A DNA stretch of 64,000 nt from assembly GCF_964019385.1 (NCBI RefSeq), contig NC_088643.1, positions 18,597,775-18,661,774 of the forward strand, read 5' to 3'. This DNA is from Sycon ciliatum. Its lineage: Eukaryota > Porifera > Calcarea > Leucosolenida > Sycettidae. Below are positions 16,606-44,442 of this stretch, piece by piece. The position numbers and the translations under genes were made by a program. Under the pieces are notes generated by a model that was not told the DNA's origin, made no database searches, and worked only from the letters and a program-made list of their open reading frames with translations. Every line of letters starts with the position of its first letter. Position 1 is the first letter of the stretch.

Positions 16606-16643
16606 CAAGAGTTCATAACATTCATGGGGGTTATGAACTCTTG
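16606..16643. mobile_element. 38-bp CAAGAG...CTCTTG micro-element
   Basis: The arms CAAGAGTTCATAAC and GTTATGAACTCTTG are perfect 14-bp inverted repeats. The flanks TTATCAT and TTGTCAT match at 6 of 7 bases, a 7-bp target duplication as at the other members. Confidence 0.75.
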
Positions 16644-17099
16644 TTGTCATGGTTACCAGTATCCCAAGCCAGTTGGCACGAAGTCAATGTGTGCCTGCCC
16701 TCAAGTTGGTGATGGTCATCCCCCCCCCAGGCGGACCTCAGACCCAAAGCACAGAGAAACTAGGGTGGGGGGAACCCTCAGGTCCGGTACTGAGTAAAAC
16801 ATAGAAAGACAAAGCAAAAGTAGGTGAGAAGAAAGGCTGCAACTCAGGGAACTGGCCAAACCCGGCTCAAGCGGATAAGTCCGCTTGGGCGGTGTTACAT
16901 GTACTGTTAGTGTCCACATCTACATAATTATCGTATGCGCTGTTGTACTTCTTGGCCACCCCAGACATCCATGATAGTCACTATGGCATATTGTGTTATG
17001 TTATGCATCTAGCCTGGACTTGGCGGGTTTTAGTTGCTGTGCATGAGTTGAGTCAGGCCTCTTGTTATTTTGGATTGAGGAAACAGAGAATCATGACTA

Positions 17100-17358
17100 C
17101 AGTCCATTTCAAAACTATAGACGCGTACCTAGGCAAAAACCGTTATGCCAGCATCTACTAGTATACCACATAGAATCTGTGATCACTTTGTGCATAAATT
17201 TTTCCAAATTGGGCGTCTGTTATCCAATCCTTTAGAAACTATATGAGAGTAATTGTGGAGCGATCCTGAGCAATATTCCGAAAAGTATTCTCAAAAAGTT
17301 CCAGCCAAATTTGAAATATTTCAAAAACCCTACGCGTCTATAGTTTTGAAATGCACTG
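17100..17358 (-). mobile_element. MITE family M1, copy 2 (inverted)
   Basis: Carries the same ~250 bp as 10178-10428 in opposite orientation, with CAGTCCATTTCAAAAC at the left and its complement at the right. TA on both sides. Confidence 0.87.
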
Positions 17359-18229
17359 TACACTAGGCGGAAGCGGAACTCCTATCATGAACAAAGTCTA
17401 TTCAAGTCCGAGCTACTCTAAGCTGATCCAAAAACCTCTTCGATATCTGGCAAGTTCAGTGAACTTATACTACGCTAACGTCTTTTTTCCAGCGAGCAGC
17501 TGCGAAGAGAAGGATCGAGCAGGCAACAGCAAGCAGAGGTCAGCAGGAGCCAGCGCCATACCATGGTAAGGAAAGTAACAATGCAAGCAGCCAGCCGGAA
17601 AGACCGTGAATGCGGCAACTGAGTCATGCTACCACATTGACTATGTCAATGACTCATGTGCAAGCATCACTACAGCATTCTGAGCACGTTTCCTCCAGTC
17701 AACCGAAACTGAAAAAAATCTGAGCATAATAACGCTAGCATGCAGCCTACTAACTTGGAAGCGCATCTAGTATTTTTCAACAAAACTACATGAATATATG
17801 GATGTACCTAGATGCTGGGACTGAAACCCCGTTAGTAAATAGAAATCTGAGATTCCCTGGCAAAACGTGGCGAAATTGTTCACCGATTACAATATAGTTT
17901 GTTAGAAAGACACAAGGTAATCTATCTGCCACAGATGATATTCGTGCGCAATTTTTTGAATCAAAGCTGTCACCCATTGCTTCGTGAAAACTGAAAAGTC
18001 TGCGCTTCTATTCAAGAGGGGCTTGTATTAATTCAAAATGGTTGTTGCAGGGGGAGGTGGGTGCATTATTCAAGAGGGGCTTATATTCGAGAGAGGCTTC
18101 TAATTGAGTGGGTATCAGCGGGTAATTAATTTATTTGATGGTTCAGAAATTATCTACTAACGAGGGAGGACCTATAACAGTGGCCGTAAGCTTGACATGA
18201 TGACACTTGTGCCAGTATAAAAACAAATA

Positions 18230-18404
18230 CCGTAAAGTCTTGTATAAAAGCCGCGGCGGCTTCTATGACTTTCTTGGTGAAATTTTGCAGGCTTCTATAT
18301 GAGACAGGTATGTATATCAACACTAAAAGCAGGCTTATGTGTGATTTGATGGGCCCAAAATTGCGGCTTCTATTCAAGTGCGGCTTTTATACAAGACTTT
18401 ACGG
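18230..18404. mobile_element. 175-bp MITE family M3 with perfect 25-bp TIRs
   Basis: The left CCGTAAAGTCTTGTATAAAA, continuing to GCCGC, is exactly complementary to the right end. TA duplicated at 18228-18229 and 18405-18406. The terminal pattern CCGTAA.GTC..GTATAAAAGC recurs in the 32310-32916 element. Confidence 0.92.
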
Positions 18405-18621
18405 TAATTAAAACAAATAATTATGTAGAACTACTTCGAATTACTACCGTTGCAAATTTTAAATTCAATAAATCCTAAATAGAAAAATCTGATACATAAT
18501 CTGCTAAGAATAACCTACTACCATCGCAATGTGGTTAGATGTACATGCTATATGTTATGCCATTCTAGTGGCATCATCTACTGCCGGAAATGTCACACGG
18601 GGAGACGCTGATTATGTGCAG

Positions 18622-21600
18622 TCACTTCAAGCTCTCACTTTTTTCTGCACCAGGTGATGGAATTCCACAGCAGGATGGCTGGCCACGCGGATTGGCCATC
18701 CGATACGCGTACACTGCCCGCGCTGTTGGGTCACCTACAGCAATGGCAACGAAGAGAGCACACACGTTTGACATTGAAAAGAGAGAGTACAGGCCGTTCA
18801 CTGAACTGCAACAATGATAGCAGGTGCTAGGGTCATCTTAGAAATGACGCAACCGCTTGAATCTAGACCCTCTCCACTACATAAGATGACGATTTGGGAA
18901 TAAATCCTTTGGCAGAAAAATGTAATAAAACTCGGATGTTGAGCAATAGTAGTATGATTGTACAGAGTATGGACCTATGTGTTACTCGTAACATACTGTA
19001 GAGGCAGAAAATTTCGTCGGTCAATAATTTCGTCCAACTCCAAAGAAAAGGAGTTCGTCCGGTTGAAAATTTCGTCCATGGGTCATAAGAGTGTATAGAA
19101 ACACTGGACAAATCGATATTCGTCCTACATTTAATTTAGTCCAAAAGCTCCTTGGACGAAAAAGACGAAATTAAATTCCAGACGAATATTTCTGCTTATA
19201 CAGTACAGGTCCTTACCCTTAACAGAAAATTTCCTTCTAATTTCAAGTACAATAAGTACAACTCTTTCGTTTGCCTCCAGACACAAGGGATGAAAACCTT
19301 TCTGAACACCTCATTTCGCGCACTGTACTCACTTTCTGTGGAATCCACTTCAAAAAATGTAACCACACTTGAGCAGAGGCTGATGGATAGCGAGGCAAAT
19401 CCTCCCATGGAGTTACCACCGTGCCAAAACTTCAGCAATCCTTCGGGTACTGAGCTCTATACATGTACAGGGAAATAGGGAATCAATCGGCCTGCTTTAG
19501 TGGAGGTACAAACGTGTCTTCTCGCACGCCAGGCGGATCATCAGAATTTAGTTTGAATAAAAAAAAGAGTAAATTATCGTATCCGTTCCCGAAGTGCAGG
19601 GAGAAAACGGTTCAACATACAGTAAAGTCTGTCATTGCCGACCATTCAAGGACACCCACACATGGTCCAAATAGTCCCCCTACTGAACCAGGGCCAGTTT
19701 CCTGCAAGTGACACCCTTTGGTCACAGTTCTAGTGGTCCTCTGGAACAGGCGGTCGGTCGCCTTATCAGACCGCTCCCCTACACACACACAGGCTTACTG
19801 TCAATAGCGCCACAAAGAGCCGGTATCAATTGTGGACAAATAGTGGCTGAGCGCATACAGTAGAGGAGCCGCAAGATGTGAAATTTGAGCAGAGCTCTTA
19901 GTACCGGTACCACTGACTTAGCCAAGAATCACCCTCGACAGTTGAACACAGGCCCGGCGGAACCAGTCCGGTTGGTCAGGCCCTGGCTGGACCAACGTTT
20001 TAGCCACCAACACGTGCGGTGGCCGTGCGCACCCGCCATATCATGCAGGGCCGCCGGAACCGGTCCGGTTGGTCAGGTTTTCACCGGACCAACATTTTAG
20101 CCACCAACACCTACTAATGCTGTGGAGGTCATGTGTACCCGCCATATCATACACAAACTATGAAAGGCACTGAAACTACCGGACCAATCAAAAACTGCTT
20201 CCCGCGGTCCTGTCATGCACAATGCGTGAAGGGCTATTGTATGGCCGGACCAATCCAAAACTGCTTCCACTGGTACTGGAATGTACGCAAAGGACCAAAG
20301 CCAGCACACCTATGTGGAATTGAGCAGCTATTCAGGGCACCTACCTTCCGTTCAGTGCTGCTGGAGCTGAATGTTGCCGAGCCCACAACAAACATATCCA
20401 CCTTTTGCGTCACAGAGTGGATATGCTGCAGGTTATGGTCGTGACCAGAGAAATACCTGAGCACAGGAAAAAGAAGAACAAAGCAGAACAGATCGCAAAC
20501 CACATTTCTGTTTCTGTGGACCACTGTTAAACACTCAATACTAGGAAACAATGTGATACCTGGTCTGGTGGTTGGAGAGGGTGTCAGTGGCACCGATCCA
20601 CTGGCACGGATGCAAAATAGCACACAACCCCAAACATTACAGAACTCAGTGCAGTTCCCATGTATGCAGGGCAACATCTTAAATTAAAAGCAAGCTAGTA
20701 AACTTATGCCTGCTCTCCCTTGCTCATTGGTGCAAGAAAACACACAGAATTGTAACATACAAGCAAGAGTACATTTTAAAGGGGAAGTTAAGGCAAAAAT
20801 TAAAATTTCACCAGTTGTAGTCTTCGGGGTGCTGAGTCGAATGGTCTTGGTCCGAGAAAGCTGAGATGCTCCCTTCCTACTTGAATCCCAATCGAACTCG
20901 CGCACTTCCACCGAAACTGGGTGACTGCGCCCTACTAGGTGGGGATTTGTATGCAAAATGTCACTAAAAGCGCCATTTCGTTCTTATAAAAGCACGGATG
21001 ACCACGATTGACCCATATGTTGTAGTCTTTTGGACGCTGAGTCGACTGGTTTTGGTCCGAAAAGGCTGCGATGCAGCTTTCCTCCTTTATTCCCAATCGA
21101 ACATGGTTGAACAAGCGGTCACGTGCTCCTGCGTACACCAGCCACCTGGTCACCGTGCCTGCAGGGCAGGCGCGTCGGAAGGACTTTGGAGGTGGGGCGG
21201 CCATGGAAGGGGGGTCCGGGGGTCGTCTCCCGGGAAAAAATTTCAAAAATTGAAGCCAATTGCAAGCATTTCCGGGCATTTGGTGCCATTTCAGTGTACG
21301 GTATCTACAATGAAAGACTTTTTGATTCTGCAAAAAAACAAGAAGATGCTACGATCGGGGACAAACATTACCCTCCCCAGGGAAAAAAATTCAACAATTG
21401 AAGCCAATTGCAAGCATTCCCAGGCATTTGGTGCCATTAGATCTACATGGACTTTTGATTCTGCAACAAACCACGATCGGGGACAAGGATTTGCCACGTT
21501 TGCGCTGAGATCATCGCGCTTTGTTGCAGTGTGCTAAAAAAAAAAAAAAAAAAAAAAAACGGCCGAAAAAGTGGGGCGGCCATGGCCGCCCCGGCCGGTG

Positions 21601-24600
21601 CGGTTCCGACGCCCTTGCAGGGTACAACTTACTAGCCTCTTTGACCTTTTTTGGGTGCAGTCCTGTCACTCGAGTTGAACCTTGGTGTGAAAGTTGTCGC
21701 CTGCTGGTGTGGTGACCAGGTGATTTGGGCACCCAGGAGCACGTGACCGCTTGTTCAACCATGTTCGATTGGGAATAAAGGAGGAACGCTGCATCGCAGT
21801 TTTTTCGGACCAAAACCAGTCGACCCAGCATCCAAAAGACTACAACATATGGGCCAATCGCGGTCATCCGTGCCTTTATAAGAACGAAATGGCGCTTTTA
21901 GTGACATTTTGCATACAAATCCCCGTCTAGTAGGGCGCAGGCACCCAGTTTCGGTGGAAGTGCGCGAGTTCAATTGGGATTCAAGTAGGAAGGGAGTGTC
22001 TCAGCTTTCTCGGACCAAGACCATTCGACTCAGCACCCCGAAGACTACAACTGGTGAAATTTTAATTTTTGCCTTACTTCCCCTTTAAACCCCCCAGAGT
22101 GTGCAACGCCTGATCCAGCTCTGCATAGGGTCCTGGTCGAGCGTAATCGGATCTTTGCGTCATAATACCGTACACATCTGAGGGGAGCCCGGGGAGTCGC
22201 GGGTACTCTAGGATCAAAAACAACGGTGCCCTGCCTCGAGACCGGCCTTGCGCTGGTGTGGAGTGTACGCATGACATCAGAAGATCCGATTACGCTCACC
22301 AACACCCTATGCAGAGCTGGATCAGGTGTTGCACACTCTGGGGGGCTATGTACTCTTGATACAAGTAAGCACGTGGGTATTACTCACATGGCCACGCCGT
22401 GTCGCTCCAATAATGGCAGCAATCGCCTAACCAGGAGAGAACTTGATCCATGGCTGCCAACACTGTAAACTGGTAGACCAAACGAAAAAGAATCACAGAA
22501 GACAGAGGTTGGACAAAGGCATTTTTTTTTCATTCTGACAGAAACACCAGTACTAGTTCAGCCCACTCAGGGTGGATTCCTGCACTGAGCCATGTGCATT
22601 TGAACCTAAATTACCGTTCCCCATCTAATTGTGAAACAGATATCTTCCTTCCCATCTCGCAAATAGTCATGGAATACCTTGCGTAGTGAGAACTGACAGG
22701 GCTACCCACCCCTTCCCTCATCGACATAATATTATACCGTATTTTCCGGAGTACATGTATAGAAATACGGTACATGCACATGCACGCCGGGGAGTCGTAA
22801 AATACCGGTATTTTACGACTCCCTGATGCACGCACAGACATGTCACGCATATTACGGGCACAAGCTTACTCGGATGATGGCCAACCACTATGATCCAGTC
22901 GGCCGTACTCTTGGAGAGCCGAGAAGATATCCAGCTCCATTGCTTTTCGTCAGTCGCAGCTTCTCGGAAGAAGCCGAACAGCAACGTTTGTGTGTCTAAG
23001 AACAGGATTTGATAGGAGAGGGTGGAAGTGCTGCAAGGAAGTAGGAAGAAACAAAACAGTAGAGGATATGCAATATATTTATAGTAAAGAAAAAAGGTTC
23101 TAAAATGGTTGTTCCTAATCGATTTTCTTGAGACTATCATCAGGGAAAAATCGTCTCACAATAGAGGCTATACGGAGAAACAAACTACTTATAGGTTATA
23201 GCAAGAGTACATAAACAAGAGTGTGCAACTCCGGATCTCTCCTGCACAATCTCCAGATACCCCCGCCCACGGCGGAATTTTTTGTTGACGTCACCTTTTT
23301 TCAGAGAAACGCGGACTTTGCCGCAGAGCAGTGTGAGAGCACGTGCTGGGCACCGACCTTGTAGTGTAAAGCCCGGCCAAGTGCACGAGGGAAACCTCTC
23401 CAAAAGGCTCGCAGCGCGTGCGTCGTCGAAAAGATTACGTCAACAAAAAATTCCGCCGTGGGCCAACCCATCCGCGAGTTGCACACTCTTGTTTATCTAC
23501 TCTTGGTTATAGGATAGTGGGAAGTATACAAGGTGAGGCGTGAAAAGAAAAAATAAAGTGGGAGAGAAGACGAAAGAAATTAGAAGAAAAGATGTGAGAG
23601 TGTTCCGACGGTGTGAGCTACTACAAAAGGTGAGTGAAATGAAGACTCTTCACCTAGCATTTACACACGTATTCATTCGCATGCACCTACACCTCACAGT
23701 TCCTCACTCTATCACATTCACCTGCTTCCACGCCTTCATTTCACCTTGTATACTTCCCACTATCCTATAACCTATAAGTAGTTTGTTTCTCCGTATAGCC
23801 TCTATTGTGAGACGATTTTTCCCTGATGATAGTCTCAAGAAAATCGATTAGGAACAACCATTTTAGATACATGTATTCTCATTCATCATTTTGTAATGTC
23901 CGCTTCACTTACCGTATTATCTCTAATATAAGCACAGTCTCCAATAATAGCACGTCTCCAATAATAGAACACCTTGGGGCGGCATTCAAAAAATAAAGTG
24001 CTCAGTCTCCATTATAAGCACACTGTGTAAATTCATTATCTGTACCGGCGAAAAACCCCTGAAATGTGTGAGTCTGACATGAATTTGGCATGGCAACAAG
24101 CCTCTGAAATGAGGTTGAAATAATAATGGAACAGTCTCCAATAAAGGAACGTCTCCAATAATAGCACGGGGCGGAGGTACATTGAACAAATAAAGGACTG
24201 TGCTTATATTAGAGATAATACGGTATGCTATTAATCGCATTAATAAAGTTACTAAACAATCAGCTCATGAGATAACACTGCACGACACTGACCGACGGTA
24301 CTGAAGTTGTATAACTAACTGGCTAACAGCTCTAGCACATCTTGGATGCGCACTCCAACAGCCTTCCAACTTGGAAGGTTCAAAGTTATAGAAATAACAT
24401 GAGTTTATAGCAGTGTTTATATTCCCATAAACATTACGACACCGGTGTTTATTCTATATGTGCTGTGAAACTGCAGTAGAACATACATGTAACCTGAAGG
24501 TCTATAAAATGATGAAAATCTGTACTTCATAGCTGCTTTTAAAGGGGAAGTTAAGGCAAAAATCAAAATTTCACCAGTTGTAGTCTTCGAATTGCTGAGT

Positions 24601-27600
24601 CGAATAATCGTGGTCCGAGGAAGCTGAGACGCTCCCTTCCTACTTTATTCCCAATCGAACTCGCGCACTTCCAACAAAACTGGGTGACTGCGCCCTACTA
24701 GATGGGGATTTGTATGCAAAATGTCACTAAAAGCGCCATTTCGTTCTTATAAAAGCACGGATGACCGCGATTGGCCCATATGTTGTAGTCTTTTGGACGC
24801 TGAGTCGACTGGTTTTGGTCCGAAAAGGCTGCGATGCAGCGTTCCTCCTTTATTCCCAATCGAACATGGTTGAACAAGCGGTCACGTGCTCCTGCATACA
24901 CCAGTCACCTGGTCACCGTGCCTGCAGGGTACAACTTACTAGCCTGTTTGACCTTTTTTGGGTGCACTCCTGTCACTCGAGTTGAACTCGAGTTGAACCT
25001 TGGTGTGAAAGTTGTCGCCTACTGGCGTGGTGACCAGGTGATTTGGGCACCCAGGAGCACGTGACCGCTTGTTCAACCATGTTCGATTGGGAATAAAGGA
25101 GGAACGCTGCATCGCAGTCTTTTCGGACCAAAACCAGTCGACCCAGCGTCCAAAAGACTACAACATATGGGCCAATCGCGGTCATCCGTGCTTTTATAAG
25201 AACGAAATGGCGCTTTTAGTGACATTTTGCATACAAATCCCCATCTAGTAGGGCGCAGTCACCCAGTTTCGGTGGAAGTGCGCGAGTTCGATTGGGATTC
25301 AAGTAGGAAGGGAGCGTCTCAGCTTTCTCGGACCAAGACCATTCGACTCAGCACCCCGAAGACTACAACTGGTGAAATTTTGATTTTTGCCTTAACTTCC
25401 CCTTTAATACATCCGAGGTTAACTAAAATATGATTGATATAGCACACTGCAAATGTACTTGTTACAATATCCAATGGCAGGTTACAGTAGGGATTCCAGT
25501 CAAAATTTCAAATTCATAATTCAAGCTAGCTTGTTCTTGGACAATGTCACCGAGGTAATGAGAAATCCAATGGTACCAATTTTATCAAAATCGGTCCAGG
25601 CATTCGAAAGTTATAGCCATTTTTCTACAGCGAAATGGGTGTATTTTTCTCTGGCGATCAAATGGGAAATCAGCTCAAAACATGGTCAAACTACTGCATA
25701 GCCACCACCTAGCTACATACATTTTCACACGAATCAGATGAAATTTTGTTTACAGCCGGCCTCTTATCCTTGCCTTGAGCGGATGGCATATGCACGCTTC
25801 GATTCGGCAACCTACCCCTCTTCTTCACACGGCTTTGGCCGACAAGGACGTCAAGTCACCAGCACGGCTTTGGCCATTGCGGACAAGGATGGCAAGTCAC
25901 AAACACGCCAATGTTGCCGATGCCGTCATCTGCAGAGCTTGCAAGTTGTGAACCAAATCCAGAAGACGCTGTCGATGGGAGCTGGGATCAGGCTGATCAT
26001 GGTGAGAGATACTGCATCAGCTCCAACACCAACCAGTTCGATCGGTAATGACGGCAGCTCACTGTTCTCCGCCAGCGCACGAGTCGTAAATCCAAGCCGC
26101 CGCCTGTTCTCCTTGTTCCTCGCAAACAGGAGATAGTACAGAATCGTGTACTACGTCGTGCTCACTAGGCACAGCGCAATCCTGGTCTTCGTGCTGCTTG
26201 ATACTCGCGATCAGCTGACTGCGCTGGGGGTAACACCTAGTTTCTAGTGTAGATCTACTCTTCTTCCTCGCTCTTGAAAAAATCGCCATGTCGGAGGTGC
26301 TTTTAGTCCTACTCGGCGCACTCAAATTTTGTTGCGCTGCTCTACCTTGCTTGAGAAAAACACCGGCACGGGTGATTCCGAAAGGTATTTGGGTGCTGAA
26401 GCTGAAAATCGGTTTAAGAATCCCCCAAGATGCCATTTTAGACTTGAAAATCGCCTTCAATTTCTTCTTTGACTGATTGCAATGGCCTAATTTCGCCGCA
26501 CGGCGATCAAGAACCCCACATTGGACAGCTGAAAACCTCAGGAAGCCACTGGTGACTTCAAAAATCCTCCAGAACTTACGATATCCCAGCGCACTGGCCT
26601 AGAATGAGCCGTCATCGCGCGACCAAACTTTTGTGTGTAGCGCGTGGAGAAAGTCCTCGAACCCAGTCGGCCAGATCCTGGAACCCCTAGTTACAGCCAG
26701 GGCAGGTCTACTTTTTACTGAAGTTTCACTGTACTAACCCCATAATCATGATTGTTATGTATCCGTGCAATCCGTGCAGTCAAACTCCATGATTATAGTT
26801 ATACTCATAGACAAAATACATACTCCGGGATGTGGAGACTCGATAACGAGCTGAAGAACTCACTTGGTGACCTGGATTGAAAACTGCTTGGTGTAGTAGC
26901 GAGATGGGAAGTTCCAGCGCGACGACCTTGCGTGATAGTCCAGCAGAGCTTGAACCTCACCTCTGTGGTCGTGATTGCCGAGGATAACGTACCATGGGAC
27001 TTGTAGAGACGGGTGAGAGAACTGCTCCTATGATACAGGGTGAAGAGGGGGCATAAAAACGGCACAGTCAAGGAAAACTGGCCGTGAGGAGAACCGCAGG
27101 CAAGCAGGCTTCCATTCAGCTAGAATGCGTGCAGCAACCCAGTAGCTAGTCAGAGGGTGGTGCAGAATGCCAACTCCCAGGCCGTGCTTACCGGCGGTTA
27201 GATGCTATGCAGGGTTCTAGCCAAAGGGGGGTAGGGGGGGGGGGCAGCGCCCCCTACTCCGTTTGCGCGCCCCCCTGTGAAAAAGTGCCGCCCCCTTCTC
27301 ATTTTTCCGATTTTTGTGTTTTTTCACGCCATTCAACGAAAATACAGCCGATAGTCACTACTAGAGGGTTCATAAAGGCACATTTGTGAGGGATGAAGTC
27401 GGGACTTCACCCTGTACGTTACATTTTGCATGGCAAGACAATTTTGGACAATGGAAAAAATTGGTCATGGGGTAACCTTTTCCCATGCCCGCCCCCCTAC
27501 TATTTTGACCTGGCTAGAACCCTGCTATGATGGTGCAGGGTTCTAGCAACTCGGTGTAAGAAATCTGAAGAGGGTGGGTTAAGAGTCTTCAACTGAAGAC

Positions 27601-28353: not shown

Positions 28354-29063
28354 GACATTATGTACCGGCAGGTCTACTCCTACAACAAAGCAGCATTTGA
28401 CTGATGATTTTGCCAAACTGTCCAGGCAATTGAGTTCACCAAACACCGTACTTATTTTCTCAAAACTTTCAAAACAGCCATCATTCGTACAGTTCACACT
28501 ACATACAGTGTACTTTGTCAAGCAAAGCGCAGAAACGGATCATCAAGTACAGCTACTTAGTCTTTGAGTATCATCCTCCTTCTCTGAGGTTTCTCCTCCC
28601 ATTCGTCTGCGAGGTCGAAGGAAGCAAGAACTTCCCCTGCTGGCCGGTTTTGTGGACAAACGTCGAATCCTGACAATTATGTACGTGATGTAGCTCCATG
28701 TGTTTCATAGCATAGTAGATCTACATTCTACAGTACATGTGCAGCAAAGAGGTCATGACCCCTCGACCTCCAAACTCCTAGAAATGACGAAAATTTATTG
28801 TCAGGATTGCCGATTGGCAGCGTGATCAGGGAGGCCCGGAGCTGCATGCTTTCGCCAAGACTCAAGAGGCAAGAAGACGAGAACAGGAGAAGCCTCAAGT
28901 CCAGACTACAGCCTTGAAGAGGCCCGAATCGCAGAATACAGACTACTGAGTACTGTACTACCATGAGGCATGACTACTGCACTGAGTACATGTATGTAGG
29001 ACGACGATGACGACGTTTTTGACTCGTTCATTTTTGAATTATTTTGATCATGATTCATTGTTG

Positions 29064-29113
29064 CAAGAGTACATTTAATTAACCCCCCGGGTTATCATGG
29101 TTATGTACTCTTG
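29064..29113. mobile_element. 50-bp CAAGAG...CTCTTG micro-element, 7-bp target duplication
   Basis: CAAGAGTACATTTAATTAAC at the left, GGTTATGTACTCTTG at the right. ATTGTTG is repeated exactly at 29057-29063 and 29114-29120. Confidence 0.88.
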
Positions 29114-30882: not shown

Positions 30883-30885
30883 TTA

Positions 30886-31310
30886 AGCGGGATTCACAGA
30901 AGCTTTTTTTGCGATGCGACACGCGATGCGACGCGATCTGCGATGGATGCGTGCGATGCGAACGCGCGAAATACCATTCACAGAAGAAGTCAGCGATGTG
31001 ACAAAGTTTTGCTGATTTGGGTACGTCACCATGATATTCGCGCGGTTTGACACAACTTATAAAAATTTATAGGCAACTCTTGCACCTTTGTACAACTTTG
31101 CTGTAGAAAAGGTCAAAATCGTACACCAAATCGCTTGTCGCATCGCATCGCATCGCAAAAGTTGAGCCAAGCTCAACTTCTGCGATGGCCTGCGATGGCC
31201 CAGTTGCGGCAGTTGCGTGGGGTGCGACATGGCTGCGATTTGGGGTTTTCCCGGTTTCGCGTCTGTCGCATCGCGTGTCGCATCGCAAAAAAGCTTCTGT
31301 GAATCCCGCT
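30886..31310. mobile_element. MITE with GCGATGCGAC-rich TIRs, TTA target
   Basis: AGCGGGATTCACAGAAGCTT at the left, exact complement at the right; the arms go on with GCGATGCGACACGCGATGCG. TTA at 30883-30885 and 31311-31313. Shares both boundary trinucleotides with its neighbours. Confidence 0.87.
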
Positions 31311-31313
31311 TTA

Positions 31314-31926
31314 GGGAGCATCTCATAAGTTCGCACTTTTTTTGTAAACGTAACGCATTTCGAATAGACTTTACCCCCCTACCTCCCCCCACTATTTGAA
31401 AGTCTTATCGCACATTTTCCGTGTACATGTAGATCTACTATTGTACATGTACATGTACATGAATGTTTTGCTAGTGTGGAAGTGAATGGCATACAGTAGT
31501 ACCGCATCTACTGAGTACAAGTACAACCAATGACATGTACACGCACATAAACAGAGTTTCTCCACAAAGACTGTACAATGTACTGTGAAAGCTGGCCAGG
31601 TACACGGTTTGATAATGCTGGTGTGAAATTTGACACCTCTGATGGTTAGCCTGCGTGATTGATTGCATGCAGTGCAGGGTTAGCTCAGCTGATCTGCGAA
31701 CGTACTACACTGTACTAGGTAGATCTACACCTGAACACCATGATATGAACACGCCCTAGGCCCTGCTGAAGCGGTCTAGCACATGCACCATGTGCACAGC
31801 ACAGTATTGTACACATCCAGAAAATGTGCGAACTGTCATTTTTCTATTCGAAATGGGCGCTACCCCCTACCCCCGTTTCGAAATGCATTACGTTTAGAAA
31901 AAAATGCGAACTTATGAGATGCTCCC
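31314..31926. mobile_element. PIF/Harbinger-type MITE, TTA target
   Basis: GGGAGCATCTCATAAGTTCG at the left, complement at the right; the arms extend through a T-run to CGTAACGCATTTCGAA. TTA at 31311-31313 and 31927-31929. Confidence 0.87.
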
Positions 31927-31971
31927 TTAGGATGGGTTCATTTTTGTCTACTTGGTAGAGTAGAGTAGAAC

Positions 31972-32306
31972 CAAGAGTGTGCAACACCCTATCTTGATCT
32001 GCAATGGATTCACCAACAGCGGAATTTTTGATTGCGTCATTCTTTGGAAGAAGTATGCCCAGGTGTATATGCTTTCCCGTGCTTGTTTTGTAGATACGGC
32101 ACAGAGTTCATCAGGTTCAGGACATATCGATCTATCGTCCGTTGTTCTGCCTTGACTACCGTAGCTGCGATCTGCAATTGTTGTGTACTTTGATCGCTGG
32201 CTGCGGCTACGCATGGTGGCATTAGTGAGCCAAACAACCGCGAAAGACTGATGTCATTTAAAAATGCCGCCGTGGGCTAGGGAATCGTCGAGTTGCACAC
32301 TCCTGG
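31972..32306. mobile_element. MITE with AAGAGTGTGCAAC ends
   Basis: Left CCAAGAGTGTGCAACACC, right GAGTTGCACACTCCTGG. Internal GGAATTTTTGATTGCGTCA and GCCGCCGTGGGC echo the 23202-23505 element. The right end abuts the next MITE. Confidence 0.75.
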
Positions 32307-32309
32307 TTA

Positions 32310-32916
32310 CTGTAGTGTCGCGTATAAAAGCATGACCTGTATAGAAGCATGATCTGTATAGAAGCATGACCTGTATAGAAGCATGATCTGTATAGAAGCA
32401 TGACCTGTATAGAAGCATGATCTGTATAGAAGCATGACCTGTATAGAAGCATGACCTGTATAGAAGCATGATCTGTATAAAAGCATGACCTGTATAGAAG
32501 CATGATCTGTATAAAAGCATGATCTGTATGGAAGCATGATCTGTATAGAAGCATGACCTGTATAGAAGCATGATCTGTAAAGAAGCATGATCTGTATAGA
32601 AGCATGACCTGTATAGAAGCATGATCTGTATAGAAGCATGACCTGTATAGAAGCATGACCTGTATAGAAGCATGACCTGTATAGAAGCATGACTCGAATA
32701 GAAGCCGATTTTCCAAAGCGTGCCGTAACACAGAAGCATGGTTTGAATAGAAGCACATGTACTTGCACACTACATGTGTGACAATGTACACTGTACAGTG
32801 TAGACTGAAAATGTTGACATGTAGAAGCATGTTTTGAATAGAAGCATATCTTGAAGCACGGGTTGAATGACGGCTTGTACGGCCGTAAGCACCTGCTTTT
32901 ATACGCGACATTACGG
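32310..32916. mobile_element. MITE family M3 with internal minisatellite
   Basis: Left CTGTAGTGTCGCGTATAAAA then GCA; right TGCTTTTATACGCGACATTA then CGG, so TIRs of about 23 bp with two mismatches. TA at 32308-32309 and 32917-32918. The interior is filled by an 18-bp tandem repeat. Confidence 0.9.
32329..32692. repeat. 18-bp minisatellite, about 20 copies
   Basis: Unit AGCATGAYCTGTATAGAA, alternating C and T at the Y and with rare AAA and GGA variants. The unit resembles the TIR-internal GTATAAAAGCA and appears to derive from it. Its period, a multiple of 3, creates long spurious ORFs. Confidence 0.96.
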
Positions 32917-33098
32917 TAAGAACGGATAAAGGAAAGATGGTAGATGGTAGTTCACGAATGCTCGTCCATCCACCAGTTCGGTAGAACATCGATGTATAGT
33001 CCGTTTACCAGTTTGCAGTAGTTACAGTACGACGTACGATGTAATGGAGACCAGCACTCAGGGTCACACTTTTTTTTCCTTTTTTGTTTTGCTGCTTA

Positions 33099-33348
33099 CT
33101 GTAAGTCGACAAATTTTCGGCCCATTCAAATTTCAACCTCCCAGGGCTAAAACACATTTCGGCTGCAAAAAATGTTCGGCCTGTACTGCATGCACTACTA
33201 GTCTTACTGCTGTTGCCTGTATAGACTGTCACATTGAACCTTGCAAAACAAAATTTCGGCTGCAGCAAATTTTCGGCCAAATATGATCAGGGCGAAAATA
33301 GTCGAAAATAAAATATGCGCCGAAAATTTTGTTGACTTACGTTAACAG
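33099..33348. mobile_element. MITE with TTTTCGGC-rich TIRs
   Basis: Left CTGTAAGTCGACAAATTTTC, right GAAAATTTTGTTGACTTACG and ACAG; TA flanks. Interior repeats of TTTCGGC. Confidence 0.72.
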
Positions 33349-33640
33349 TATCATGAAAATGGTGGAAACTGGAAAAAAAAAAAAAAAAAAATTCACGGTT
33401 CGCGTGAGACTCGGCCAAAGGCCCAGTTTTCCGCATCCGCAGGAACGCCACCACCCTCTTGGATCAAGAAACTGGAAAGCATACGCGAATTTCCCATCTT
33501 CACCGTATCCGTAAAACGGTGATTTGCTGGGTTATCTATGACTCATGATGACCTATAACACCACAACTTCGCCATGGGATTTGTTTTATGCAGCATAGAT
33601 GCGGAGTTGCACACTCTCGTTTATGTACTGTTTTTACCAC

Positions 33641-33887
33641 TGTTACGGAATCTCAGCTATTCCGTTCCCCGGGACGCAGGACATAAAGGACAAGACTAGT
33701 TTTGTTTTACATTTATATATTTTGACATTACGGAAATGAAGACTACACTGAAAGGGACGAACAAGAAGACTGACAAAAGGACTCTCGACTACAAAATTGC
33801 GCATGCTCATATCACACATGCACGCGACTAGACGAGACAGTTTGGGGAATACCATCACACAGGAAAACAACACATCATTTTACAACA
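33641..33887 (-). mobile_element. 3' LTR of a retrotransposon
   Basis: On the minus strand it starts TGTTGTAAAATGATG and ends GATTCCGTAACA (TG...CA), 247 bp. It is immediately preceded by the purine tract AAGGGGGCAGG (33888-33898), the plus-strand primer. Confidence 0.75.
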
Positions 33888-34018
33888 CCTGCCCCCTTGA
33901 TGACATTCCACAAAATTAAAAAAAACCGACACCACGTTCCACATGCACAACAGCAAAAGGAACCACAGCCAAAGAGAAAAATCAAAAAATAACCAGCTTA
34001 CATCGTAGCACAACAAGC

Positions 34019-34078
34019 TTTGAGTGGCTTGGGTTTTTTGGCTTGCTGTAGCAAGCCAAAAAACCCAAGCCACTCAAA
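34019..34078. repeat. Hairpin: 29-bp arms, 2-nt loop
   Basis: TTTGAGTGGCTTGGGTTTTT runs on to GGCTTGCT, then GT, then the exact complement. It lies inside the LTR element's leader region. Confidence 0.93.
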
Positions 34079-34772
34079 CGGGCAAGCAAGGCAACAGAAA
34101 TCAACCAGGAGCCAACGTTCATCAAACCAGGCCGCGACACAGGGCCAAACCAAAAACATAAAACCGAAAAATGCAACTGGAAACAAGTAAAGATTAAATT
34201 TTGTGCATGCAACAAGCTTTCACGTTCCTCGGAGCAAGACCCCACTGCCACGGACGACCAACCATGCCGTCTCCACGATTCCTGCAGCCTCATATCCATC
34301 CAGGATCCTTCGCACCTCAGCAACAGCAAAACAAAAACTGACAACAGACCAGCACAAAATAAATCTACTAAACAAAACTATACGGAATAACAGAACGACG
34401 AGAAGAGCAACAGAACGACAACAACCAAACTCAACAACACAGCAACAAGCAACGAACTGAACAGCGAGAGAAACACGATCAGACAACGCAGCGAGCAAGA
34501 CAACAAGACGAACAACAAAGGACGACACACAGTCGGTGATACCAGACTCGTCCACTGGCCTCTGGCGAGCCACGGCCACACGCTCCATGCGATACTGCCG
34601 TCCCGGGCTCCAGTCCACAGGTTCAGCCCACCACCTCCTCTGCCTCCTTTCCATCGACTTGCGCTCCCACCTCTCCTGATCACCTCCATCCCCAGGCTTA
34701 CCCTCTAGTTGTACTATTTGTTGTTGACGACGACGACGAACAGACTCATGACAAACTAACTCATCCTCTGCG

Positions 34773-34790
34773 TCCCGGGTTTCGGCACCT
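34773..34790 (-). promoter_or_regulatory. tRNA-Phe primer-binding site of the LTR element
   Basis: The minus strand reads AGGTGCCGAAACCCGGGA, matching 17 of 18 bases complementary to the 3' end of animal tRNA-Phe (..TCCCGGGTTTCGGCACCA). It starts 3 nt after an LTR-like end (GATTCCGTGACA at 34794-34805). Confidence 0.78.
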
Positions 34791-34966
34791 CGTTGTCACG
34801 GAATCACAGCCATTAACACACGGGGTAGTGCCCAATGATACGGCCGCACCACTGGAATACGTTGCGACACGGGACTCACCGGCAGCTTCATGTCAACGCC
34901 GTCTCGTTGCTGCCACCGTAGATTGCCCGACGACCCGCTTAGCTGCAGTCCAAGCACTCGGGCCTT

Positions 34967-35488
34967 CTACAGCTCTTGCGCAGGTTTGGTTGGCAGACCG
35001 AACCGAGCCAGCGTGTCCTTCACAGACGCCATGATGGACCGCGGCATGAACAAGTCGTCCACGAAGTTATCGACGTTGGGGAAGTCACGCGTCACGAACT
35101 TCACGATGGTGTCCATCACCTTCGGGGCTATGCTGAGCCCGAAACCCAATCTCCCGCGCGTGTACATCTTGCCGTCATACACGACCACTTGATACTTTTG
35201 CAAACTGGGGTGCATGCGCACCTGCAGATACGCTTTGCAGATGTCGAGAACAACGTTCTCTGTTCCTCGCTGGCACCACTCACGGAGCTTTTGATCAGTA
35301 GCTGGCGCGTCAGCTCCATGACTGGATTTGATCATCTGGTTCAGGCACCTGTAGTCAAGGCATGGCCGAACAGGCGTCGTTGGCTTGTGCTCTTGACTCA
35401 CAGCGAGAAGCGGCAGTACAGCCCCAGGTGAACCGGGCATTTCCTCGTTATACGGGACAAGCCAGCCGTTGCCCATCCACATGCGCAC
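34967..35488 (-). pseudogene. LTR-retrotransposon reverse transcriptase fragment
   Basis: Reads RPCLDYRCLNQMIKS, then VVLDICKAYLQVRMHP with the first catalytic Asp, GFGLSIAPKVMD, and NFVDDLFM with the catalytic pair. This order is that of Gypsy/BEL-type pol. Both ends are broken. The primer site lies downstream of it on its own strand, so it is not collinear with a normal element. Confidence 0.85.
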
Positions 35489-35581
35489 CTCTTCCTGGAA
35501 CTTCTCTTCCTCCGCTTCCGACGATTTTCCTCTGCCATACTCGCCGATCCCTATTGGCCGAGTAGGTGCTCCTCCATTGAC

Positions 35582-35876
35582 TCAGCGCCACTTCACCGGC
35601 CAATAGCTACGGTCAGCATGCCAACGAACTTCGGAATCATCAATCGTTAGCAGCACGCCACACCACAGATTCCAGTCGGATGAGCTCGCCTCAATGCCCC
35701 ACTTGCCACGGACAGGATCTCCGGCAGCTAACTGTGCCTCCAGATCACGACATAACTTCTCTACGGTGCTCGGGATCAGCGAATCCCAGCCTCGCTGTGA
35801 CGGATTCGCCAGACGTTTCAGATAGCTGCAATACAGACGCAGCCATGAACACAAGAAAACAACATCATTTTACAAC
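35582..35876 (-). pseudogene. LTR start fused to a pol fragment (connection/RNase H region)
   Basis: On the minus strand a second TGTTGTAAAATGATGTTG start at 35876 follows AAGGTGGGG. After about 35 bp it runs into coding sequence LKRLANPSQRGWDSLIP..WNLWC, typical of the region before RNase H. RNase H should come after the RT, but here it lies before it. Confidence 0.6.
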
Positions 35877-36344
35877 ACCCCACCTTGTTCCACCGAAGGG
35901 GGTAGGGATTTGAATTTGCGCAATCAAGTGAGATGTGACTGTATGCAGTGTTTTGAATCTTTGATGCTGCAGTCTGCACCATTTCCAGTTTTTCATTCTG
36001 CTGTGTCTGTATTATGTTGTTTGTTGTTTGTTGTATCAGCATTGCTTTATACACGGGGCCACCAGGAACGCTGCACTGCTGCTGTCCGTTGCATTGTCCG
36101 GACTTGCTACGGGAGACACTGACGACCCAGTGCAGCGGGAATAGCACAATGCTCTTGCAGTTCCAGGCTGTCGGCCAGCACGTTTTCCTTGCCGGGTGAC
36201 GTGGCAGTCAGGTACTTTCTGTGTGACGGTCATGGCTGGCTCATCTGGCAACACAACAGACGGCTGGCAAGTAAAGTAGCGGGATCATAACGCAGACGTC
36301 ACTTTCCACACTGACAGCTACTAGTCTGCACAAGTGCTTGGGGC

Positions 36345-39300
36345 ATGGGGAATAATAGCGGCGCTGCGTCATGCCCGAGGCTGCTTAGCTCCGTGGTGTC
36401 GCGCCACGCCTGCCATCTTGTCTGCATCGCTGTGTTATCATCCATTACTCTCCTCCTCTGGTGGACGAGCAGTGGTATGCTGCCGCTATGGGCAACGACA
36501 ATGACTTCGGGCAGGCTGCTCGAGCCCGTGGAGGAACCTCCTCGGGCAACTCTTCTCCACGGCGGCTTAGCCAGCGCGATTGCCCCGCCGTGCCTGGCCC
36601 GCTCTAGCAAGGCTACTAGTGAGCTACTCGTCATCGGTGACTGGGGTGGCAGGGGAAGATCACCGTACATGACCCCCGTGTCTCGCGCCGTGGGTGTCGT
36701 GTCCGGCCAGCTAGCGCAGGCACTGAGCGCCGTGGCAGTCCTGTCGCCTGGGGACGCGTTCTACCCCAGCGGCGTGAAGAAAGTGAACGACTTCAGATTC
36801 AGAGTCACGTTTGAGGTGAGCACCAGGTGCCAAGTGCCCATGGCTTCCTTGGATCATCAAAAGTAACTCAAACACTGTATTCGCTGACCAGAATCCATAA
36901 GTAGAGTTTCACATTCAGGCTTATTTTATACTCTTGTCATTGGTTGGCAAGGAAACTCCACTCTCTTCGTGTCAATGTTGCAGGTGAATACATGAAAACC
37001 TTGCCCGAACCAGTTTGGGCGCCCGTATCTACATGTGCATGTATAACCAAGAGCTTAACTGTATGCTAGTATGCCACACAAGTGATTTGTAGGCAAACTT
37101 CGCTTGTCCTATCCCCTGGACAGACCGACGTTTACTTCTGCATTTCACTTAGTCTGAAAACTCTACGAAAATGATGAAATGAAATTCCATTTCACCGGCA
37201 ATATGCTGTATAAATTGACATCGTTGTGCTTCGTCACATTATCACCATGTTTTGATTTGAGAAGCAATGGCACGAACGGCCTCATCAGGTTTACATCAGG
37301 TTTACAACTACACTGTAGCTTCATCTCTTCGTGTGATAAAATAAAATTCTCTGCTAGTATTTCTGCTTGTACAGTGGACTGACTGATGCTGCCTGCCTTG
37401 CTGCCGGCTGTGCACGCTTTCCATCCCGGCTATGCCATCACTTTAGGAGCAGTTCTCTCACCCATCGCTACAGATTCCCTGGTACATGGCCTTGGGTAAC
37501 CATGACTACGAGGGTAAGCTCAAGCCGTTGATGGAGTACGGCAAAACGTCCCGGCGCTGGAATCTGCCTTCGCTCTACTACAGCCATGTCTTTTCGATGA
37601 ACCTCTCAGAGTAAGTTGTGCAGTGCATGTGTACCTGTGTCGTTTGCAAATTTAGAATCTACACCTGCCTGTGGCCCTTGGCGGCACTGGGGCTTATGAA
37701 ACATTCTCCTATCCTATTTCCTGCGTCTTGGTTTCTGATGTAACCTTGCACTGCCTGTCCTGGCCAGGGTTGCTGTGGTATCCGGTAGGCAGCCTGTCAG
37801 TGCATTGGAGATTTGCTGCTGTAGGCCGTGCATATTAGGAGAGATGTGGCTGTGAATCCAATTGTAATGAATGGGGGAGCCATCGGCCATTATTCTAATA
37901 GCTACTTCAAGTAATTTACACTTGGATTCCCATTAATAGTCTACTTGTATATGCATGCTTACGCTGTAAGAAGTGCCTGACATTTGAGCAAAACATCACT
38001 TTAAGACATGCGCTCACTCATTGTGCAATTTTGCCGGGTGTGCGGGGATCAATGCACACCGGCGTGCTGTGCACACCCCGTTTACTTACCGGTATGAATA
38101 GTTGAATACCTCCTGTTGTTTTATGGTTTGCCTTGCGTGATGCTATGCACACCAGGTCTAGCTCTGTCACATATCAAATACTGTTCCTGGACACCAATCG
38201 CCTGGTTCGTCAATTCAAGCGCCTTCCTGAGCGGGACTCCGACCAGTGGGATTGGATCTCAGACCAGCTAGCGAGCAGCACAGCCGACTGGATATTTGCA
38301 GTCGGCCATCACCCGAGTAAGTTTCACGTCTTCTCGCCCTCATTGCTGGCCTTTTCGTGGCATGCAAAGCTGGCTGTCTGGGTAGCAGTGTGGTGCGATA
38401 TTTATAGTCAATACCGTATTTTGTGAGCGATAAGTCGACCCCGGTTATGAGTCGAACCCCCATATTTGGGGCCTGGATTTCCTACAATAATATAGTTCAA
38501 CCCGGTTGTTAGTCGACTACCCCTTTTTTCATACCCCTTTTTAGTTTGCCTTTAGGTCTTAAACGGCCGGCTTACATGTGCACTGTACAAGATAAGATTC
38601 TTTTTCTGTCAATGGTGTACGATAGTTATCTAAAGCATCTGGGAAGACTGTTGTGTGTTTCAAAACTGGAAACGTTCTTACTCTGTCAGATTTAAAAGAG
38701 TGTGACTGTGTACGTGTGGTTTGTTTTGCCTGCTTCCAGTTTACAGCGTCGCCGACAGAGGCACAAACCCGATCCTTGTTCAAGAGCTCCTGCCTCTCTT
38801 GGACCGCCACGGCGTAGCACTGTAAGGAGTCGAAGCCTATGTTTTTAAAATGCGGCACACTGCGTTTCCTGACGTAGTAACTTTTAAGTAGACCATGACC
38901 AATTCAAAGACCATTCTCGAATGTATGACCGCTGGAAATCCTGCGAAAGGTTGTTGCCTGTCCCTACTAAAGACACTGAAAAACCAGCCTCATTCATTTC
39001 CCAGTTGAGGTGATTTGCCTGAGGTAAGGAGAGAGAAGCAGAGGTGCTCTCCATAGGTGGATAATAGCTAATGGCTGTGCTACTGTGTAAAATTAGGGTG
39101 GCACCTGCACTAAGTATTGTATTGCTGCAAGAAGAAGACATGGCATTATATGTACTTCAGTGCTACAATAGTACAGTTGTGCGCGGTGAAATCCGACCCA
39201 GAGTGCACGTTTGGCGCCCTCAATTTGCACGGCCGTTGACACCCTGGAAGTTAGTTGCACGGATGCGGCTGGACGTACACATGTACAAATGCAATGATGT

Positions 39301-41178
39301 AATCAGAACTGGCACAGGGGCCAGGGTGCCAGTTTTATACTTTGAGTCGGATTTCACAGAGCGTGACTGTAATATTTCATGCACGATACACTCCCTTCTC
39401 TGTGGCAAAAATGAATTCTTCGGTGAGATTCTAGTCATAGAGGGGTTTGTGTGGTGGCTGTGAAATCACTCTGGGTTTTAGCCTGGATGTCTCGGCCTTT
39501 CCCTGGCTGTTTGTGGCTGTGTGTAATTTTTAGGTATTTCTCCGGGCACGACCACAACTTACAGCATGTGCGTACATCGAATCACAGTGTCGAGATGTTT
39601 GTCGTGGGTGCTGGTAGTTACACGACGGCAAGTATGGCGCACAAGGTAGGTCACATGCGTTGCAGCTACGCTGCTTGTAGTGTGATCCAGTTTTGTTAGT
39701 ATTTCATTTCGAATTGTTACGGTTGTCTGCGACCTCCTGATGACGGTCATGATGACCAAAACGTTGGACCATTCACAAGCCTTTATGTGAAATGCAGCTG
39801 TTAATGTCTTAGGAAGCTGCAATTAGTGTCATGCAAAATGTTGCACTTTATTTCAAGTACACGTTATGTACTGTAAAACCGGAAAGTTTAACGACCAAAA
39901 AGTATAATGTTTTTGTAATTTTGGCATGATAACGTGAAGTTTAACGATGGCTACCTGGCCACCCAGCTGTATGCGCATCTTTACACAGACATCTCAAACC
40001 GGGTTTTTGTATTTGTAATGTTACTAATGTATCCATATGGCAGAGATGTTTCACATGTGTGTTCGAAGCTTGTTTCTTGGCATGACTTTAATCCTAGTAC
40101 TTGTATATGTGTGTTGTGCTGCTTATTTGTAGGCAACTGTTCCGATTGAATTCTTGAAGTTCCACAGTGGTGCCTGGCAACGAGGTGGCATAGCATCCGT
40201 GTCTGTCGGTGGCTGTGCGAGCACGGTGACACTGCACCATGTCAATCCCACAACAAGTGAGTTGCGCCGACAATGTGCGTGGCCTGTGTATGCTACGGGC
40301 ATGTCTGGAAACGAAGATTATCAGAGTAAGGTTGTCAGCGCCCCATAATAGGGAGGTTTTGCTCTACGTAATTACGTATGAAAATCCGTATGTCGTACGC
40401 GCCGGGGAGCGAGGGCAACTTTCATACGTAAATCTCTATACGGATTTCCGTAGGAAAGCTCTTTCCTACGTTGGGCCCTCCGTAGGACTTTTTGAAATAT
40501 TTTTTCGCATTTGACCATGGCAACATTCAAGCCGCGCGAAACACAAGGTACACAGACCGTACACCACGTGCAAAATATATTGGAAAACGCGGTTTCGGTT
40601 CATGGTGCATGCGGTGGGCGCATGCAGCCAACGCGTCTCCAAAGCAACAACGCATGTTTAGCAGTCGTGGAGAAATCACGTAGAGCGAAACCCAACAGCT
40701 CTGATTTTTATTTTTTTACGTATGAAAATTCCGTGCAGTTCATACGTTATTTTCATACGTAATTCCGTAGAGCGAAACCTCCCTATTATTATTATTATTA
40801 TTATTACTATTATTATTCACACATATCCGCCGGATGAGTACGCGTGGCCCATGCGTCATGGGGACCCATGAATACAAACCAGCATATGTTCCCTCAGCAA
40901 GCAAAGATAAAGGAGAGCCCACAGCGAAAACAAAAGCGAAGAGAGATGAGGCCATAGGCAATGAAAACTCAGCTCCCCATAACTGCACTGTATTCTTGGG
41001 GCTGCTCGTCCGTGAAAGTTTCGAAAGTGGAACGGGGACCAACTAAGCTTCCCTGAAGATCTTTGTTTTCTTCTCTTTCCTTTGCCTTTCGCCAGATCCT
41101 CCTAGTGCCACAATTGCATACAGCTATACAGTGGCCAACCCGCGCAAGCGACCGGCCTGCTGTGTACCGGAGACATGA
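36345..41178 (+). CDS. Purple (tartrate-resistant, ACP5-type) acid phosphatase B, 7 exons
   Basis: Exons: 36345-36815, 37453-37610, 38156-38316, 38740-38821, 39534-39645, 40133-40256, 41096-41178. Total 1191 nt (396 aa), all phases consistent. Motifs in order: GDWGG (residues 98-102), GDAFY (136-140), GNHDY, VGHHP, SGHDHNLQ; all expected metal ligands are present. As in copy A the Asn of GDNFY is lost (Ala here) and GHYP is GHHP. Internal exons of 158, 161, 82, 112 and 124 nt are identical in length and phase to copy A, so the two arose by duplication of an already intron-bearing gene. The N-terminus has a hydrophobic segment at about residues 24-40 before the catalytic domain, again suggesting a membrane anchor. 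The C-terminus ends in an RKRPACC motif; copy A has PSCC at the same place. Intron 6 carries a 433-bp MITE. The gene is head-to-head with copy A. Confidence 0.93.
40351..40783. mobile_element. MITE family M4, copy 1, in phosphatase B intron 6
   Basis: Left GGGAGGTTTTGCTCTACGTA, right TCCGTAGAGCGAAACCTCCC; TA flanks. Shares about 90% of its length with 62371-62813. Imperfect arms continue with ACGTATGAAAATCCGTATG. An (ATT)n run follows. Confidence 0.9.
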
Positions 41179-42100
41179 GCGTCCAGCCTTACTGCTGGAT
41201 GGAGATCGACGCTACGTTGAACGGACACGTGCCCGTGCAGACTTAAATAGCCATCTTGAGTTTACCATTATTTATTCGCTTTCCAATTGAGTTGCCCCTC
41301 CCCCATGCTGTCAACACTGCACTGTCATCACATACCCAGGCATCATCACCCTGCTGTTGTTAGGAATCTCCATGGTCGACACTACACTAGTAGTAAAGCC
41401 TCTTGGACGAGCAGAATGAATTGCACATAATTATCATCAAACAAATCCAGTAAACTACTACGAAGTATAAAATCAATTTAAACACTAGTATGTCAATTGG
41501 AACACAAAATAAGACACTACTCTAGTAGCCCATAGCATTTGATCAAAGGAGGAACAGCGTTCTCTATTCTCCTGGCCTCGGTGCTTCGAAGCTTCTCAAA
41601 CGTGTTTCTTTCACGATCCTACAGCTGATGTGCATGTACCGCAAAGGCTTACTTGTATGTGAAAACTATAATAATAATAATAATAATACGAAGTGTCAAG
41701 TAAAGTCGGCGGAATAGCGCGAGCTCCAGTGTGGGGAGCAAACCCTTTCTTAATAATAATAATAATATATTATAATTATTATCTTCGACCAGTACTATTC
41801 CCAGTTCAACCAGTTGAACAATAGATCAGCACGTATACAATGTATCGGTACGTGTACAATGCTGAGATTTTCAACCCCAAACTATCACACGATGTGTCCG
41901 CAACACAGGATACGACACTCTGCGTCTCTAGTCTTCTACTCTGTACTCTGCTGCTTGTCTACAAACATTTAGAATACATTACATGTACTGGTGTTTTCTT
42001 CATGAAATATTCAGTGAGCTGGATATCAAATTCATTTCGAAGCGAATGTGGTTTAGCTTCCAGGCCAGGGAGCTTATGTAACTGTTACTCTTGGTGCTGT

Positions 42101-42133
42101 CAAGAGGACATAACCCCGGGTTATGTACTCTTG
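42101..42133. mobile_element. 33-bp CAAGAG...CTCTTG micro-element, 7-bp target duplication
   Basis: CAAGAGGACATAACCCCGGG is followed by TTATGTACTCTTG. The two halves are complementary except one base. GTGCTGT is exact at 42094-42100 and 42134-42140. Confidence 0.87.

Positions 42134-43367: not shown

Positions 43368-43368
<1 letters not shown>

Positions 43369-43428
<60 letters not shown>
43369..43428. repeat. (CA)n directly downstream of nucleobindin stop
   Basis: Thirty CA units, 45 bp past the stop. In the transcript it is (UG)30 in the probable 3' UTR. Confidence 0.97.

Positions 43429-43430
<2 letters not shown>

Positions 43431-44410: not shown

Positions 44411-44442
<32 letters not shown>

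Follow-up and report, generated by a model that had tools for sequence, protein, structure and literature searches.

Two transposons of the P superfamily are described as duplicating 7 bp of target DNA on insertion. In the consulted parts of the reports on them, Galileo of Drosophila makes its 7-bp duplication at a palindromic target with the consensus GTANTAC (PMC2775673, PMC4168063), and 1360 of D. melanogaster does so at a palindromic GTTNAAC target (PMC3276498). The P transposase, according to the portion of the account drawn on here, cuts 17 bp inside the ends of its element and leaves 17-nt 3′ tails, and the donor break is closed by end joining or homologous repair (PMC7776569). Anopheles gambiae carries P-type miniature inverted-repeat transposable elements (P-MITEs), whose ends are P-type and which, in the excerpted report, are proposed users of the P-element machinery (PMC1562414). 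Here we analyse a 64,000-nucleotide stretch of the genome of the calcareous sponge Sycon ciliatum (contig NC_088643.1, positions 18,597,775 to 18,661,774; the window), which carries tiny palindromes with CAAGAG and CTCTTG ends between 7-bp direct repeats. A sequence-only reading of this window had called a 7-bp duplication unusual, which the examples of Galileo and 1360 contradict.

We conclude, with a probability of roughly 0.9, that a cut-and-paste transposon of the P superfamily and its MITEs left the tiny palindromes behind as scars when they were excised. In the process we envisage, the transposase would excise the element, with the other strand cut approximately 17–19 nt inside each end. 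Each side of the donor break would then keep a 7-bp target copy and a single-stranded tail of the element end, and host end joining would fill in or trim the tails, or add filler, before joining them. The expected product has a target copy at each side and, between the two, a piece of the left end joined to a piece of the right. The sequence itself shows the scars and the 7-bp repeats around them, full elements as well as two empty sites, and an open frame for a P-type transposase between nearly the same ends.

Abundance and target duplications of the palindromes

Four CAAGAG..CTCTTG loci had been reported in the window, and on rereading all four proved to have the coordinates and 7-bp flanks given for them. 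The longest, of 304 bp, is an ordinary MITE with the outer end CAAGAGTACATAAA and the inner motif CAAGAGTGTGCAACTC at its left, the complement of which lies at its right. The window contains 49 exact CAAGAG/CTCTTG pairs no more than 3 kb apart, and in seven of them the 7-bp flanks differ at one position or none (four exact), when about 0.07 would be expected (binomial P ~6e-13); one of the seven (42101-42460) joins ends of two different tiny elements. Flank repeats of 5, 6, 8, 9 or 10 bp are absent among these pairs, and repeats of 4 bp occur in five, a length at which chance readily yields matches when one mismatch is allowed. Members with a duplication beyond the four first listed are 20764-22358, 42437-42460 and, with a mismatched right end, 9379-9819 (Table 1).

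The assembly containing the window (G000) comprises 538 Mb in 313 contigs. The MITEs and transposase-bearing elements of the family share the end CAAGAGT(A/C)CATAACCCCCC, the inner motif AGAGTGTGCAAC and 7-bp duplications. The end CAAGAGTACATAA occurs 11,531 times in the genome (6,175 + 5,356), as opposed to 103 times (60 + 43) for the reversed pattern. When exact 13-nt ends 0-30 bp apart were required, the genome yielded 891 tiny palindromes with the CAAGAGTAC end and 307 with the CAAGAGTCC end, and the controls yielded none in either case. Ends of 9 nt placed 36-66 bp apart were found at 246 places (control, 0), and several of the listed ones consist of two adjacent scars. Such palindromes could in principle arise by chance, for which we found no supporting point; the reversed-pattern controls and the restriction of the duplications to 7 bp, with none at 5, 6, 8, 9 or 10 bp, reduce that explanation to a negligible probability.

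Full-size elements without a transposase measure roughly 200-425 bp in the genome. Among the first 100 places, 26 adjoining plus- and minus-strand ends lie less than 2 kb apart, and these pairs fall into a class of 31-42 bp (7 pairs) and a class of 207-424 bp (19 pairs). MITE status was established for L005, L011 and the window element at 23202-23505, with identities of 87-100% in the best 40 of 2,783 candidates. Imperfect-ended scars with a duplication number 3 per 71,259 flank bases, 1 per 117,292 bases of other loci and 4 in the window, figures that fix their density poorly; the window was selected for containing them. A scan of viral contigs with CAAGAGTACATAACCC, made for ends only, found three contigs.

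The first 36 tiny elements, from 35 loci (L042-L076), were read together with their flanks. In 29 of them the flanks form a 7-bp duplication, exact in 23 and with a single mismatch in the rest, whereas none has a repeat of 5, 6, 8, 9 or 10 bp and four have one of 4 bp; with one flank shifted by 3, two matches remain in one direction. A larger set, consisting of the fetched loci and the window with viral contigs and duplicate loci excluded, gave 71 distinct CAAGAG/CTCTTG pairs of 20-60 bp. The 7-bp duplication is present in 52 of these, exactly in 38 and with one mismatch in the others; nine have a 4-bp repeat and none a repeat of 5, 6, 8, 9 or 10 bp. The earlier proposal of a transposon family with 7-bp duplications is borne out; the repeats stand well above chance in the window and prevail among the tiny elements read elsewhere in the genome.

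The duplicated 7-mer has a palindromic bias of the GT...AC kind known from the P superfamily, and its length also fits that superfamily. Among 31 solitary sites, its second base is T in 23 and its sixth is A in 27. Outside the 7-mer, the third base is T in 15 sites on the left and A in 14 on the right, and the fourth is A in 16 on the left and T in 17 on the right.

Junctions and the states of single sites

Two of the 36 tiny elements (L059 and L060) belong to copies of one duplicated stretch, which leaves 35 independent ones. Their retained ends were scored against the parental end variants seen in the loci and two further variants. Each end retains 13-21 nt, and 66 of the 70 ends retain 19 nt or less: 27 keep 13-16 nt, 14 keep 17, 10 keep 18, 15 keep 19, two keep 20 and two keep 21, the commonest lengths being 15, 17 and 19 nt and the lower limit of 13 nt being imposed by the search pattern. 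The joins are without filler in 12 elements, have a 1-nt overlap in two and contain 1-18 nt of filler in 21, which includes C runs and apparent templated copies. Thirty of the 35 sequences are distinct. The inner motif GAGTGTGCAAC, which comes after the outer 13-20-odd nt in 12 intact end types, is present in none of the 35. Short retained ends, a missing inner motif and mostly distinct junctions are what would be expected if a P-type excision leaves long 3′ overhangs that are then repaired, and the stagger here looks like 17-19 nt.

Repair might also have proceeded mostly by synthesis from a sister copy that halted early, rather than by direct end joining. Templated-looking filler at some junctions (L062) would fit such aborted copying, as would at least three elements of 55-67 bp. 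On one side these still carry the inner motif or a close variant of it, and they show that simple end joining does not account for every short form. Against aborted copying, the retained ends stop at 19-21 nt (n = 35) although up to 30 bp between the 13-nt ends was permitted, and none of the 26 end pairs measures between 43 and 206 bp. We consider aborted copying unlikely as the main route, and direct end joining after excision remains the preferred one.

No second copy of the whole window stretch 41900-45900 was found (best 40 of 4,367 candidates scored), so that allelic empty sites were unusable and paralogous repeats were taken instead. The scar at GTGAAAC in L057 has a counterpart in L054 that lacks the scar and one of the 7-mers. 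L054 itself carries a 32-bp scar (19 + 13 nt) at GTATAAT, and the L052 copy lacks this scar and, again, one 7-mer.

A genome search with the L054 repeat, in which the best 40 of 2,672 candidates were scored, revealed further forms of the same site. Some copies run across the scar at nearly unchanged length, and four are 46 bp shorter (234 vs 280 bp), near the expectation for an empty site. Seven contain the scar and lack the stretch after it, and in ten the match ends at the start of the scar. In one copy (on contig C7) the match breaks within the scar and 251 bp separate its halves. A query composed of the L011 MITE between the two L054 flanks had its best match, among those listed, at C7:70927-71331, where query positions 4-412 of 416 align at 94%. 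Judged from alignment coordinates, a full MITE of ~282 bp appears to occupy C7 where L054 has its 32-bp scar.

A P-type transposase and a second family of putative scars

The P-type RNase H domain PF21787 has 44 matches in the assembly. Two copies of one element were delimited, one of 5,920 bp (L085/L033, C1:65906257-65912176) with the exact duplication ATTCGAC and one of 5,923 bp (L034/L086) with the exact duplication TTATCGG; they have the end CAAGAGTCCATAACCCCCCAGAGTGTGCAACTC and a frame of 824 aa from its ATG (839 aa open). The ends of these two elements agree over ~33 nt in the stretches compared, and the MITE end differs from the transposase-element end (CAAGAGTAC vs CAAGAGTCC) by 1 of 33 nt. 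A transposase gene bounded by the palindrome ends had been named as something to look for; the two elements supply it for the CAAGAGTCC ends, and none bounded by the CAAGAGTAC end itself was found. The CAAGAGTCC transposase or a relative may drive the CAAGAGTAC MITEs.

PF21787 exceeded the cut-off in all three proteins for which this was scored and was matched in 13 of 13. A profile built from 13 relatives in the genome matches the P transposase 6p5a in the PDB (E = 1.9e-17), and also GLI/ZIC-type C2H2 zinc fingers. The catalytic region expected of a P-superfamily transposase, an RNase H domain with a GTP-binding insertion, is present, and two elements combine such a transposase with nearly the ends of the MITEs and scars. 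P elements, which had been named as a possible source, are supported by the domain matches, the profile match and these elements together. The N-terminal THAP zinc finger of the P element, THAP9 and Galileo families was not seen among the families matched by the 13 proteins at E 0.01, these being intronless frames, several from cut loci, so that another exon could encode it. PF12017 (Tnp_P_element) is uninformative, as it has no match in this genome or in 14 control genomes.

A second family resembles the first at a different duplication length. Palindromes of the form CAGGGAGTC..GACTCCCTG have an 8-bp duplication in six of eight cases and none at 5-7 or 9-11 bp, and exact-ended CAGGGAGTCGT..ACGACTCCCTG palindromes occur at 2,135 places genome-wide (control, 0). 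Among the 50 listed, 19 measure 38 bp and seven measure 27 bp. In L025, an end of this family lies 738 bp upstream of an open frame with a PF21787 match, a hint that the second family may also be P-type.

The sequence-only reading had held that the tiny palindromes moved as units and that a 33-bp palindrome can transpose. By that account, palindromes of 24-50 bp are transposons in their own right, and two bare ends are enough for the transposase. Exact duplications flank tiny elements, and some forms recur: CCCCGGGG was found three times and CCCCCATTATG twice with different duplications, and three second-family copies with different 8-bp duplications are at most one base apart. Lengths also spike, in the CAAGAGTCC set at 27 bp (13 of 50) and 36 bp (11 of 50; among those listed, lengths only) and in the second family at 38 bp. 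Fill-in joining, on the other hand, itself predicts the 38-bp form, which can be read as 19 + 19 nt from the parental end seen in L008 and L025. The prevalence of distinct junctions, the missing inner motif and the full, scarred and empty states of one site likewise argue against mobile palindromes. We regard self-mobility as a general explanation as very improbable, and the claim for the 33-bp palindrome is not supported; a minority of the tiny forms may nonetheless transpose.

In addition to the recurrent forms, the length spikes and the elements of 55-67 bp, several observations weigh against excision scars. Seven of the 36 tiny elements lack a matching duplication (L042, L048, L050, L051, L055, L063, L072), although in L072 one is seen once the adjoining scar is counted in, and in L050 the 7-mer GTGCTAC is common only to that element and the scar on its right. 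In L048, L062 and L069 the flanks fit inverted copies better than direct ones, a possible sign of fold-back repair. At the shared C7 site, the full element is known from coordinates and not letter by letter. PF21787 also served as the search model, so that its matches are not independent; the profile behind the 6p5a match also contains a second clade, and on its own the 824-aa protein matched nothing in the PDB.

Rows of putative scars, other features and known P-type systems

Facing ends of the form GTACTCTTG-N(4-10)-CAAGAGTAC occur at 175 places (control, 0), and the gap is exactly 7 bp in 47 of the 50 listed, 8 bp in one and 10 bp in two. Of the 47 7-mers at these junctions, 45 carry T as their second base and 42 carry A as their sixth. 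In L065, two scars that differ from each other alternate with three copies of GTTGGAC, and in L066 four scars of different lengths alternate with five copies of CTCATAT. Tandem duplication does not look right, because different scars stand beside the same 7-mer. The arrangement suggests repeated insertion at one target copy, or side-by-side elements that left one by one. Full-size MITE pairs 2-14 bp apart, placed like the scars of a row, were also observed from match coordinates (C12:5266306-5266891 and C8:34797443-34798036).

Fly P elements are known to insert at the duplication of another P element. Scars may act as landing pads, with elements returning to the same 7 bp, leaving again and building rows that record successive visits; we hold this idea tentatively, at somewhat less than even odds. 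The element ends (TTG on the right, CAA on the left) would supply the T and A three bases outside a GTANTAC core and make a target copy again a fair target, but the A and T preferred four bases outside are not supplied by them.

Table 1. Members of the two palindrome families in the window (and, where stated, in locus L070)
Feature	Position	Strand	Details
441-bp element	9379-9819	+	Exact duplication ATTCTAC; right end CTCTTC, one mismatch
38-bp putative scar	16606-16643		14 nt left end + 7 nt filler + 17 nt right end; duplication TTATCAT (16599-16605) / TTGTCAT (16644-16650)
P-type MITE, 1,595 bp	20764-22358		Exact duplication ATACAAG on both sides
Second-family palindrome	22788-22825		Duplication ATGCACGC
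Full-size MITE, 304 bp	23202-23505		Duplication GTTATAG
50-bp putative scar with filler	29064-29113		Duplication ATTGTTG
Decayed copy	31972-32305	+	CAAGAGTGTGCAAC ... GTTGCACACTCCTG; outer ends eroded
Right end of neighbouring scar or element (TTATGTAACTGTTACTCTTG)	42074-42093	+	7 bp (GTGCTGT) from the 33-bp scar
33-bp putative scar	42101-42133		17 + 16 nt; duplication GTGCTGT
24-bp putative scar	42437-42460		17 + 7 nt; duplication ATGCTGA/ATGCTGT
Decayed copy	51407-51750	+	Inner-motif-like left, outer end right
Second-family palindromes	L070:711-748 and 931-968

Several members in Table 1 have further features of their own. In the 1,595-bp MITE, the end at 22358 is intact (CAAGAGTACATAGCCCCCCAGAGTGTGCAAC, minus strand), and a nested palindromic insert (~20780-22084), bordered by TTAA on either side (AGGGGAAG..CTTCCCCT), interrupts the left end. 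The first 55 bp of the 441-bp element and its left duplication are also present inverted just upstream, which creates a perfect 126-bp palindrome (9308-9433) centred on GTAGAATGCATTCTAC; a similar inverted flank surrounds the scar in L048. The left end belonging to the right end at 42074-42093 was not found, and matching flanks are absent from the decayed copy at 51407-51750. A 258-bp stretch at 6212-6469 has related inverted ends CAAGAGTAGCTAAAAACAACAC and flanks that do not match.

Elsewhere in the window, a minisatellite with a 17-bp unit (AGAAGCATGACCTGTAT and variants) occupies 32343-32682. A young-looking repeat of ~345 bp lies at 44646-44989, and its 39 best other copies are 99-100% identical (best 40 of 4,367 candidates scored). 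Frames near this repeat resemble a nucleobindin gene on the minus strand, and two overlapping frames at 2530-3755 resemble a Harbinger-type transposase.

Hundreds to thousands of naturally preserved P-type scars would make questions that have called for assays readable from one genome, among them how far the cut is staggered, in what proportions breaks are joined bluntly, by microhomology or with filler, and how often an element departs rather than remains. Repeat annotators should be aware that a short palindrome can have perfect duplications and yet be immobile. The scar rows, in turn, suggest that one target copy is used repeatedly, which is a testable idea.

Among described systems, Galileo is alike in its 7-bp duplication and similar target core; it differs in its unusually long inverted repeats and THAP-bearing transposase, as given in the consulted part of PMC3688188, whereas the shared ends seen here agree over ~33 nt in the stretches compared and no THAP domain was found. 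1360 likewise has the 7-bp duplication and a similar palindromic core, a likeness seen in the duplication and the target, and the part of PMC3276498 drawn on contains no scar catalogue. The word 'footprint' is absent from one Galileo paper (PMC4168063) and from the P-MITE paper (PMC1562414), and the literature searched, to which subscription papers mostly did not belong, yielded neither a natural P-type scar catalogue nor P insertion into its own duplication. The P-MITEs of A. gambiae differ in their 8-bp duplication. The Drosophila P element is alike in a transposase related by sequence profile and would be alike in a staggered cut, of 17 nt in the excerpt of PMC7776569 and putatively of 17-19 nt here; it differs in its own 8-bp duplication, THAP domain and ends. 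The superfamily and its excision chemistry are already known. Within the literature searched, three things seem new: a variant that makes 7-bp duplications and has no detected THAP domain, a natural scar record of this size, and scars that stand in rows at a single target.

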